The notes below the pieces were generated by a model. The model made no database searches, was not told where the DNA came from, and was given only the letters and a program-made list of their open reading frames with translations. From a bacterium (GTDB taxonomy: Bacteria; CAIWAD01), in NCBI GenBank assembly GCA_030429345.1, contig JAUIFJ010000007.1, positions 93,887 through 157,886 on the forward strand: a stretch of DNA of 64,000 nt, in the 5' to 3' direction. Shown piece by piece: positions 54,492 through 58,749 of this stretch; the first letter of the stretch is position 1; every line of letters begins with the position of its first letter. Position numbers and translations under genes: made by a program.

Positions 54492-54623
54492 GGTGCCAGG
54501 CACGGTGCCAAGGACGGTGCCAGGGACAGTGCCACGCTCGGTGCCAGGGACGGTGCCAGGGACGGTGCCACGCACGGTGCCAGGCACGGTGCCAGGGACA
54601 GTGCCAGGCACGGTGCCAAGGGC
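54492..54623. repeat. Eleven tandem 12-bp repeats
   Basis: Exactly 11 units of 12 bases, most reading GGTGCCAGGSAC, with variants such as AGTGCCACGCTC at unit 4. Each unit contains the small palindrome GTGCC-A-GGCAC. The array is intergenic, between flhB and mscS. It can be read as an open frame in several phases but encodes no recognisable protein. Confidence 0.95.
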
Positions 54624-54737
54624 GGAATCCACATCGATGAAGACTTCACCCGTGTCTAGCGCAGCAAAACCAGCTTCCTGATCTCCAGGGCTTGCCGGCG
54701 CTGGACGAGTAAGCCCGGTGAACCCGGTCCTGCACCC

Positions 54738-55805
54738 TCAGGAAGGAAGCGGACCGCCGGCTTGAGCCACATCTCCCGCCGGCAAGGGCTGATCCAGCAG
54801 CTGCAGGCCCGCCTTGCGGAACTCGCGGATCACGGTGCGCGTCAGGTCGCTGACCAGGGCGAACTCGAAGCGGTGATCGAGCACGTATACCTTGAGCTTC
54901 AGACGGATCATGCCGTGTCCGTTGCGCTCCTCGTTGGTGAAGACCACGGCGCGCGGCTTGTTCAGGTAGGCATAGCGGCTCAAGGCCGCGCAGCGCAGGG
55001 CCAGTTCTCGGGCGCGATCCATGTCCGCGTCCACCGGCAGGTGGAAGTAGATCGCCACCTGGCAGTCAGGCGCGCCGGCGTTGGCGTTGGAAACGGACTT
55101 GCTGACGATCTCCATGTTGGGCACGGCGACGACCGAGTCGTCCGGGGTCAGCAGGCGCACGGTGCGCAGGCCGATGGAGAGCACCTCGCCGTAGTGCTGG
55201 TCGATCTGGATCTTGTCGCCGACGCCGAAGGGCTTGTCGAAGAGGATCACGATGCCGCCGAAGATGTTCTTCAATACGTCCTGACTGGCGAAGCCGATGG
55301 CGATGCCCGCCGAGGCGGTGAAGGCGAGCACGCTCTGGATCGGCGGACGAAAGATCCCGATGACGACGAAACTGATCAGCGCTGTCCAGCCGAGAATCCG
55401 CACGACGGGAATGATGCCCTTGATCGTGAGACGATAGCGCGGCCAGCGTTCGCTGAGCACGTTCAGCACCAGGCCCGTATACCGCAGCACGAACCAGCCG
55501 AGCACGAGGACCAGGATCGCCGAGATCCACTTCGAGGCGCGGAAGAAGCGCCATTCGGCCTCCTCCAGGCTGCGGGCGGCCTGCGCTTCCACAGTGCCGC
55601 CGCTCGCTTCGGCAAGGCCCCCGCGAGTCGCCTCTGCTGCCGGAACCTGCGGGCCGCCTTCCGCCTGCGCGTGGATCACCGTGTCCGCCGTCGCGCTCCG
55701 CGTGCTGTCCGGCACCTGCGCCGGCAGGGACAGCGACTGGATCACGATAAGCAGCAGCAGCGCAAGCAGCAGCGCGCTCCGGCTAGTGCAGGAATCGTTT
55801 TTCAT
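54738..55805 (-). CDS. MscS-family mechanosensitive channel
   Basis: 355 residues. A signal peptide or first TM (~10-27) is followed by a periplasmic linker, two TM helices (~92-110, ~132-150) and the pore helix with the family signature GIAIGFASQDVLKNIFGGIVILFDKPF split around residue 170. Then come the beta domain (GDKIQIDQHYGEVLSIGLRT) and C-terminal alpha/beta domain. The start overlaps the end of the upstream ATPase gene by 23 bases, implying translational coupling. Confidence 0.92.
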   Translation of the reverse strand: MKNDSCTSRSALLLALLLLIVIQSLSLPAQVPDSTRSATADTVIHAQAEGGPQVPAAEATRGGLAEASGGTVEAQAARSLEEAEWRFFRASKWISAILVLVLGWFVLRYTGLVLNVLSERWPRYRLTIKGIIPVVRILGWTALISFVVIGIFRPPIQSVLAFTASAGIAIGFASQDVLKNIFGGIVILFDKPFGVGDKIQIDQHYGEVLSIGLRTVRLLTPDDSVVAVPNMEIVSKSVSNANAGAPDCQVAIYFHLPVDADMDRARELALRCAALSRYAYLNKPRAVVFTNEERNGHGMIRLKLKVYVLDHRFEFALVSDLTRTVIREFRKAGLQLLDQPLPAGDVAQAGGPLPS

Positions 55806-58749
55806 AGAGTGCCCGTACGAAGGTTCTGTAGAGAAAGAAGTGCAGTTCGCAGGAGCCCTGGCGCTCGACCAGGATGCCCTTGTTCGCCAGCCCCGTCTGC
55901 AGCAGGCGGGCGGAGCGCTCGGGAACGGAAAAGACCCGCGCCAGCTCCTGGCTGGTCAGGCTTTCGTGTTGCACCGTGGTGGCAATGGCGAAGAGCTCCT
56001 CGCTGTCCACCAGTTCGGCGATGCCCGCGTCAAGCTGGGTCAGGCCGTCGATCTCGAAGCTGCGGTTTTCCTGGTTGCGCAGGGAGCTCAACCATTGCAG
56101 CATGGCCACGCTGATGTTGCCCCCGGAGGCCTGGCAGAGCTTCTCGAAGAACTGGCCGCGCAGGTACTCCTGGCGCAGTTCGTCGCTTTCCAGGCGCCGA
56201 TAGCTTTTGCTTCGCTGCGTGGCCTCGTCGGCCCGGAAGACCAGGGGAATGCCGCTCAGGCGATGCCGCTTCAACAGCAGCTCCTCCAGGCTGTCGGCGG
56301 GCAGGCCCTTCAACTCCAGCACCTGGCCCACGTAGCGACCGACGCCGAGCACCTTGTCGAGATACAACCAGGCATACAGCCCGCAGGAAAGCAGCCAGAA
56401 GACCTTGTCGTGGGTCCGCGCCATGAGCAGCAGGAAACGGTTGAAGACTTCCAGCCCCTCGATGGTGCGCAGGAAGAGCCGATGAGTGTCCTCCAGCAGC
56501 ACGACTTCCGTGCCCTCGCCTTCCGACAGCACCTTCTCCAGCGCCTCCAGGCTTTCCTCTTCCAGCAGGAAGACCTGGTTCAGGAAGGCCAGCAGCTCCT
56601 CTTCGCTGCCCAGCTTGCCCGGAGGACTGGCCTTGCGCTGCCGCAATCCTCCCGGCAGGCGCGTCGACAGCAGCTGCAGCAGGGTGCTGCGTCCGGACCC
56701 GCGTTCGCCGATCAGCGCCAGCAGGCCGTTGTGCCCCGCGCGCCAGTCCTCGATGGCCTGGCCCAGAACCTCGAGTTCCCGGTCGCGTCCCACCAGCAGG
56801 GCCGGCTCGCCCAGCGGCTCGAAGCGGAAAAGGCGACGGTAGATCGCCGGCAGGCTTTCCAGGGTGAAGCGCGTGTCCCGCAGGTATTGGATCACGGCGT
56901 CGGCGGCGGCCGTGCGCTTGCGGATGCCCAGGCGGGTCACCTGTGAGACGGCGCCCACCGTGCGGCCCGCCCGCTCGCGCAGGAAGACCCGGAAACTGTC
57001 GTAGCGCTTGCCGCTCAGCGCGCGGAGACCGCGCAGGCCCTCGCGCAGCTTCTTGCCCCACTCCTCCAGGCGGTCTCCGGCCCGGGAGCGGGCCAGCGAC
57101 AGCTTGAGCGCCAGCAGCCGCTCGCTCTCCATCAGTTCCAGCACCTGGGCGATGTAGGTCTCCAGCGCTTCCGCCACGCCGGCCAGGCTGTCCTCCGCTC
57201 CCGCGGCGAGTGCTTCGCATTGCCCGGCCAGTGTCTCACGACTGCGCTCGAGGCAGTCCAGCACCAGCTGGCGCGCTTCGGCGACCCCGTCCTCGTTGCC
57301 GCGCAGCTCGAGCAGGGCCGTCTCGAAGGCCGCGTCGATGACCGGCCCCTGCAGCCCGATCTCGTTGGAGACCTGCAGCATGCGCACCCGGGCCTCCTCG
57401 GCCACCGCTTCCAGCCGCGGCCAGGCGCCTTCCTCCAGGCGATCCCGCACCAGTTCGGCCAGGGGAATCTCTTCCACGCGGGCGTCGACGGCCCGCGAGC
57501 CGACAGGACCTTCCTGCATCACCGCATAGCGGTCGCGCAGCTGTTCCGTGTCTTCGCCGAGTTCACGGGAAAGGCTTCTCAGCCGCTGCTCCAGGCGGAA
57601 GCGAAGAATCGTCTCGGCCGCAGGAGCCAGCCGTGCCTCGACCCAGTCGCGGGAAAGGCCGCGCTTCAGTTCATACAACCTTCGCCGCAATGCGCTGGCA
57701 TCCTGCTCCTCCTCCGCCAGGCTGGTGAAGCTTTCCTGCAGAGCCTCCATGACCTGCTGCAGCTCACCGCTGACTTTGGGCACCAGCTTCTCTTTCAGTT
57801 CCTGCTGCAGCCGCAGACCCTTCAGGCGGGCGCGATCCCGCAGGCAGAGCAGATCGGCGTCCTTCGAGCATTCCAGCCATTCGCCGCGCCAGCGCTCTTT
57901 CCAGGCCTCGGCATGGCGCCGCAGCTCCCGTCCGCGTCTGCGGTATTCCGTGCGCAGGGTCGCGGGCCGGAAGTGTCTCACCGGCTCGAGCAGGCTGCCT
58001 GCCCGGCCGGCAGCCAGGGCGGCCTGTTGAAGGATCTGCTCCAGCGCCTGCTCGAAGTCCTGCAGCGCCTGGGCCTCGAAATGCAGCAGCTTCTCGCCGA
58101 CCGGGTCTTCCGCCGGGTCCGCCGCCTGTTCTCCACTGGCCAGCGTGTTCCACAAGGGCTTGTAGAGTTCCAGGCCCAGCTGGTTCAGCTCCTGCCACAG
58201 TTCCTGCAGCCTGGCTTCGGCCGGCAGCAGCAACTGGCGGATCAGGAAGGCGCTGCCGTCCACGCGGGAAAGACGCGCCCGCGGACCGCTGCGCCTCATC
58301 AGCCGGGCTTCCAGGCGCGCCAGGCGAACCTGCACTCTGCGTGTCCGCGAGTCCTGTCCAGTGCTGTCCAGGGTGTCCGGGTCGACGCTCAGCGCGGCGG
58401 GCGGCAAGGCCAGCACGCGGCGTCGCAGGGGCGGCGAAAGTTCGTGATACAAGCGACGAAGGGTGTGTTCGCGGGTCAGCGGGGATTCCAGGGTGCGCAG
58501 CTGTGTGCCCAGTTCCTGCAGCAGGGTGGACCGCTCCTGCAGTCCTTTTCCCCGGGCGTCTTCCGGACAGGCGCGAATGGCGGCGATCTCCTGCGCCTGC
58601 CGTCCCAGTTCGGAGCTCAGGTTCTCGCGGGCCCGGCCCAGAAAGAGGCGCGCCGCCAGACGCAGCTCCCCGGCCATTTCCTGGCAGAGCCTCAGCAGCT
58701 CCTGCCGGTCCAGGCTGCCCGGCGGCGGGGGATGTTCGCGGTCGCTCAC
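55783..58749 (-). CDS. Large coiled-coil STAND/AAA-type ATPase coupled to an MscS channel
   Basis: 988 residues. The GTG at 58749 overlaps the xth stop (GTGA); a longer open frame runs through xth in another phase. Residues ~1-640 are almost entirely long charged helices, probably coiled coil. An ATPase module starts LLVGRDRELEVLGQAI, with Walker A GERGSGRST near 683 (Arg in place of the usual Lys) and Walker B-like EVVLLEDTHRLF near 748. The C-terminus has a winged-helix-like region near 930 (LTSQELARVFSVPERSARLLQTG). No named family is recognised. A regulator or gate of the adjacent channel is the natural hypothesis. Confidence 0.75.
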   Translation of the reverse strand: MSDREHPPPPGSLDRQELLRLCQEMAGELRLAARLFLGRARENLSSELGRQAQEIAAIRACPEDARGKGLQERSTLLQELGTQLRTLESPLTREHTLRRLYHELSPPLRRRVLALPPAALSVDPDTLDSTGQDSRTRRVQVRLARLEARLMRRSGPRARLSRVDGSAFLIRQLLLPAEARLQELWQELNQLGLELYKPLWNTLASGEQAADPAEDPVGEKLLHFEAQALQDFEQALEQILQQAALAAGRAGSLLEPVRHFRPATLRTEYRRRGRELRRHAEAWKERWRGEWLECSKDADLLCLRDRARLKGLRLQQELKEKLVPKVSGELQQVMEALQESFTSLAEEEQDASALRRRLYELKRGLSRDWVEARLAPAAETILRFRLEQRLRSLSRELGEDTEQLRDRYAVMQEGPVGSRAVDARVEEIPLAELVRDRLEEGAWPRLEAVAEEARVRMLQVSNEIGLQGPVIDAAFETALLELRGNEDGVAEARQLVLDCLERSRETLAGQCEALAAGAEDSLAGVAEALETYIAQVLELMESERLLALKLSLARSRAGDRLEEWGKKLREGLRGLRALSGKRYDSFRVFLRERAGRTVGAVSQVTRLGIRKRTAAADAVIQYLRDTRFTLESLPAIYRRLFRFEPLGEPALLVGRDRELEVLGQAIEDWRAGHNGLLALIGERGSGRSTLLQLLSTRLPGGLRQRKASPPGKLGSEEELLAFLNQVFLLEEESLEALEKVLSEGEGTEVVLLEDTHRLFLRTIEGLEVFNRFLLLMARTHDKVFWLLSCGLYAWLYLDKVLGVGRYVGQVLELKGLPADSLEELLLKRHRLSGIPLVFRADEATQRSKSYRRLESDELRQEYLRGQFFEKLCQASGGNISVAMLQWLSSLRNQENRSFEIDGLTQLDAGIAELVDSEELFAIATTVQHESLTSQELARVFSVPERSARLLQTGLANKGILVERQGSCELHFFLYRTFVRALYEKRFLH

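Follow-up and report, generated by a model that had tools for sequence, protein, structure and literature searches.

MscS channels are the textbook passive, tension-gated safety valves. In the TrkH-TrkA and KtrB-KtrA systems, potassium channels are accompanied by nucleotide-binding cytosolic regulators. The locus described here, which lies in a 64,000-nucleotide stretch of contig JAUIFJ010000007.1 (the window), consists of an ATPase gene (product P0001) and an MscS-family channel gene (product P0002). It resembles the TrkA/KtrA arrangement in that a cytosolic nucleotide-binding protein is encoded beside an ion-conducting membrane protein; trkH itself lies upstream in one group of relatives (type D, below). 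It differs in that P0001 has an AAA+/ORC-like fold and a long stalk, and in that the partner is an MscS. P0001 gave no Pfam match to an RCK/TrkA_N domain at E up to 1 and so falls outside the TrkA/KtrA family.

P0001 shares an AAA+ core followed by a C-terminal winged helix with the STAND and initiator-clade AAA+ proteins (ORC/Cdc6, TnsC, NLR, Avs4), but these are set apart from it by its stalk, its MscS partner, the transporter fusions in its family and its degenerate Walker residues. There is also some likeness to MscK and MscM: certain relatives (type B) carry an N-terminal hydrophobic segment or helical part together with several membrane segments ahead of the ATPase, next to a short MscS. 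However, these N-terminal parts have no family match above cut-off, and the channel is a separate gene. The initial annotation recognised no described two-gene system of this kind, and that judgement stands: the pairing is conserved, and no published description of an ATPase-MscS system was found in the open-access literature. M. xanthus MscS and CPA2 proteins are listed in PMC3924187, with no mention of an ATPase partner in the passages concerned. With no described system found that pairs these parts, this one looks undescribed.

The reading frame of P0001 begins with GTG and overlaps the stop of the upstream xth gene by 4 nt; G+C in this region is not unusual. The protein had been annotated as a 988-residue AAA-like ATPase with an Arg in Walker A and a C-terminal winged helix; the ORF, the GERGSGRS motif and an AlphaFold2 model all bear this out. 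The model (pLDDT 79.7 over the full length, 89.4 for the AAA+ and winged-helix part) has the helical, AAA+ (from about residue 640) and winged-helix parts listed in Table 1. The annotated "~640 residues of coiled coil" do correspond to a long helical region, which is better named a long helical stalk. No membrane segment was found in P0001 by hydropathy.

At the sequence level, P0001 falls below the Pfam cut-offs for AAA_16 (26.5 bits; cut-off 32.6), AAA_22 (22 bits; cut-off 27) and the BREX BrxC/D family PF10923 (16.8 bits; cut-off 22.2), and searching the PDB by sequence alone gave nothing useful. Unlike P0001, the homologue at locus L052 scores above cut-off for AAA_16 (41.3 bits) and AAA_22, while its PF10923 match is confined to the P-loop region. 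Foldseek with the full-length model returned general AAA+ matches with large rmsd, and a model of the AAA+ and winged-helix part alone gave a cleaner fit: the best match was ORC (Z 16.8 over 244 residues), alongside Cdc6/Orc1 (Z 15.9 over 283 residues) and TnsC (Z 15.1), at sequence identities of only about 9–17%. With an AAA+ core, then a winged helix, in an ORC/Cdc6-like arrangement, P0001 is by its predicted fold an initiator-clade AAA+ protein.

The nucleotide site is less orthodox. Of 63 family members, 45 carry the Walker A Lys and 18 are without it, Arg taking its place in 13; the window has Arg, and so falls outside the active P-loop ATPases as defined by that Lys. The second Walker B acid is absent from most soluble, type-A proteins; 61 of the 63 members retain the Arg of an RHxxSG motif. 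A cyanobacterial relative from Zarconia navalis (L215, 3542–4591) lacks any P-loop and has MscS genes on both sides. Since Walker residues are often lost, and the P-loop-less relative still sits between MscS genes, nucleotide binding or scaffolding is probably of more importance than fast hydrolysis; read from the sequences, the loss is more suggestive of a scaffold or slow nucleotide switch than of a motor. Of the energy- or ligand-gated opening first proposed, the energy-gated part is uncertain, because the Walker A Lys and second Walker B acid are so often missing. The degenerate motifs, in many members and in the window, also weigh against an assembly or remodelling factor that inserts, assembles or dismantles MscS or transporter membrane complexes and has no part in gating. 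The AAA+ fold, with NSF and TnsC-like structures among the best matches to the model, is compatible with such a role, but permanent fusion to transporters (below) suits regulation better than chaperoning, and we judge it decidedly improbable.

P0002 belongs to the MscS family: its MS_channel_2nd beta-domain scores 74.5 bits against a Pfam cut-off of 20.2. MS_channel_3rd reaches 16.6 bits against a cut-off of 21, in the right place and over the full profile. Like other family members, P0002 has hydrophobic segments, and the sequence GIAIGFASQD lies in a TM3-like region. The N-terminal segment taken for a signal peptide could be one, or alternatively the first membrane helix. P0002 lies well below the NCBIfam cut-offs for MscS (59 vs 500), MscK (57.3 vs 991) and MscM (58.4 vs 809). 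The annotated 23-base overlap with the ATPase gene was confirmed, and on this basis translation of the two genes is likely coupled. A 12-bp tandem array of about 10.6 copies (unit GGTGCCAGGCAC; window 54492–54625) lies between flhB and mscS.

Table 1. Positions of the two genes and their parts in the window.
Feature	Position	Strand	Basis
MscS-family channel gene P0002, 355 aa	54738..55805	-	
P0002 hydrophobic segment near the N terminus (residues 11-29), either a signal peptide or the first membrane helix	55719..55775	-	
P0002 MS_channel_2nd beta-domain, residues 176-242	55080..55280	-	Pfam
23-nt overlap, ATPase stop / mscS start	55783..55805	-	
ATPase gene P0001, 988 aa: helical stalk, AAA+, winged helix	55783..58749	-	
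P0001 helical stalk, residues 15-632; collinear with stalk of Na+/H+-exchanger-fused relatives	56854..58707	-	AlphaFold2 model, HMM, reversed/shuffled control
P0001 AAA+ domain, residues 640-905, ORC/Cdc6/TnsC-like fold	56035..56832	-	
P0001 Walker A GERGSGRS (Lys replaced by Arg)	56686..56709	-	
P0001 Walker B VVLLED	56488..56505	-	
P0001 C-terminal winged helix, residues 908-983	55801..56028	-	

The partnership of the two genes is conserved. Adjacency of mscS in distant lineages had been named as the check on the proposal, and homologues mostly without mscS as the result that would tell against it; across several phyla, mscS lies directly 3' of the ATPase gene and on the same strand in 59 of 63 loci, and is nearby in 62. 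These genomes are mostly metagenome-assembled, the genes are ORF calls made in this analysis, and mscS was identified with an MscS HMM. The 63 loci come from many phyla, among them Nitrospirota, Calditrichota, Bacteroidota, Balneolota and Ignavibacteriota; in a scan of named genomes from these five (including the Balneolota isolate Gracilimonas amylolytica) and others, mscS was directly downstream in all. The 13 named loci confirmed at E < 1e-50, from at least five named phyla, all have mscS. The exceptions to direct pairing are four: mscS lies about 2 kb downstream at L174, is divergently upstream at L060 and L191, and is missing at L055 (10729–15363), the sole member with no mscS nearby, whose membrane domain is not recognised by Pfam. 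At L175 (genome G540) a type-B ATPase gene is followed by two tandem mscS genes. Independent Pfam scans found MS_channel_2nd in all ten partners tested.

A search of 386 diverse genomes with the AAA+ and winged-helix part recovered full-length relatives in distant lineages, nearly all adjoining mscS. A profile built from eleven members gave strong matches in 8 of the 386; in one large phylum, about 84 of the 235 genomes had a match (among the matches listed, E < 1e-15). The window's genome has a single copy of the ATPase; its three nearest relatives, of the same family, and one genome of the same class have none, so the ATPase is not essential in the window's family. Because genomes contain 1 to 11 MscS matches (ten genomes), a chance MscS neighbour is estimated to be expected at well under one per cent of loci. 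A local accident of the window's genome is ruled out as the source of the pairing by its conservation in distant phyla.

The channels, too, are particular to the pairing. With a type-A MscS profile, 11 MscS genes in ten genomes scored above 200 bits, every one of them beside an ATPase gene (one locus holds two in tandem); all other MscS in those genomes scored 117 bits or less. A tree of 74 MscS proteins places the partners of the four ATPase types (A to D, below) mostly with others of their own type, and 13 of the 15 unpaired MscS fall together; the ATPase tree contains the same architecture groups. Both trees are quick ones with SH-aLRT support only, in which type D is not one clade. ATPase and MscS distances are correlated (Mantel Spearman r 0.79; null maximum 0.23 over 1000 permutations), also within types (0.64, 0.75, 0.64 and 0.96). 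As judged from these sequences, the paired MscS, though of the MscS family by their beta-domain, form separate clades of their own that are tied to the ATPase gene.

The wider family shows four architectures: (i) type A, a soluble stalk plus ATPase (16 loci, including the window), (ii) type B, mostly N-terminal membrane segments plus ATPase, (iii) type C, an SLC12-like (AA_permease) membrane domain, a long helical linker and the ATPase (7 loci), and (iv) type D, a Na_H_Exchanger domain, stalk and ATPase (16 loci, two with a membrane domain that Pfam does not recognise). Neither L055 nor L186 had a Pfam match in its N-terminal membrane domain. Na_H_Exchanger, AA_permease, TrkH and MS_channel_2nd are above cut-off on fused domains and neighbours. 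With an HMM built on the type-A stalk, 14 of the 16 proteins of type D gave collinear matches (best E 2e-31) and one type-C protein a weak match (2e-5). Reversed and shuffled control sequences gave none up to E 10, which excludes coiled-coil bias as the cause. Nearly all members of every type adjoin mscS, the exchanger and SLC12-like fusions included. In 12 of the 16 type-D loci trkH is directly upstream; the operon trkH, exchanger-stalk-ATPase, mscS is kept in L061, L163, L165, L167, L171, L172, L179, L181, L186, L192, L196 and L198. At L184 a soluble ATPase gene lies between trkH and mscS, and L190 has the order ATPase, mscS, exchanger. Near the window's own pair, no trkH, exchanger or SLC12-like transporter gene was found within the 20 kb scanned. 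Across the family, members share the stalk together with the AAA+ and winged-helix domains and have MscS as their constant partner; what varies is the protein of cation uptake, exchange or cotransport.

This variety bears on two other readings. The ORC/Cdc6 fold and C-terminal winged helix would fit an ORC/MalT-like transcription regulator that binds DNA and controls mscS expression, but a module that supplies many-spanning transporters (types C and D) and membrane proteins (type B) with their cytoplasmic arm makes this a very slim prospect. Alternatively, the genes may merely be co-expressed: P0002 would be an ordinary tension-gated safety valve, both genes would have their role under osmotic or ion stress, with the ATPase acting on a transporter or the envelope and making no contact with the channel. 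The normal beta-domain of P0002 agrees with this, and the transporters fused to the ATPase in other types may be its true target. Yet mscS is kept in types A and B, mostly without a transporter beside the pair, and the paired MscS clades follow the ATPase tree; we regard co-expression alone as unlikely.

A stress or defence device that kills or protects by ion release had also been suggested. In the defence version, a STAND-like sensor would open the MscS pore on phage attack, leading to self-killing; a weak fold match of P0001 to Avs4 and NLR proteins and sub-threshold STAND matches in Pfam lend it something. PADLOC, however, gave no match above noise for the ATPase (best E 0.0068, in the P-loop region only) and none for the MscS, and no members were found in phage, plasmid or IMG/VR collections. 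The neighbours are housekeeping genes (argS, a SpoU methylase gene and xth upstream; flhB, flhA, an SRP54-type GTPase gene and a sigma factor gene downstream), and transporter fusions and an adjoining trkH are found in the family. These searches and neighbours give no support to a defence island or abortive infection, and we consider the defence version very improbable. The killing half of the suggestion is thus unsupported, while the family context—the exchanger and SLC12-like fusions and the upstream trkH—points to ion and turgor homeostasis.

We therefore favour, with a probability of roughly 0.6, the reading that the pair belongs to a widespread family of units that control ion flux, an AAA+ protein regulating its own MscS in each. 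A cytosolic AAA+/STAND-like protein and its own channel, of an MscS clade, would be produced jointly; by means of its nucleotide site, winged helix and long helical stalk, the protein would sense a state of the cell and determine when that channel opens, within the control of potassium, osmolytes and turgor. Related units carry the same module as the cytoplasmic arm of a transporter, either SLC12-like or of the Na+/H+-exchanger type; in the window the controller would be free in the cytosol. Since the module is a transporter arm and, in the exchanger type, is preceded by trkH, the proteins for uptake, exchange and release may all stand under one regulator. What the genomes show is the conserved pair, the MscS clade dedicated to it, the co-diversification of the two proteins, the shared module and the TrkH, exchanger and SLC12-like context; contact with the MscS cytoplasmic cage, a nucleotide-dependent change in gating and a role in turgor are what we infer, along with the signal and which way the effect runs. 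Counting against this reading are the lack of transporter genes around the window's own pair, the Walker A Lys missing from the window and other members, the relative that has no P-loop, and the absence of the ATPase from the window's nearest relatives. More tentatively, and at somewhat less than even odds, the AAA+ switch may actively gate its dedicated MscS through the stalk and couple it to TrkH potassium uptake, cation/proton exchange and SLC12-like transport, making this a turgor-control family.

If this is true, MscS would be a regulated channel and not merely a tension-driven one, and many bacteria would place ion uptake, exchange and emergency release under one nucleotide-sensing regulator. 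The pair offers a direct route to testing how cells coordinate opposing ion fluxes.
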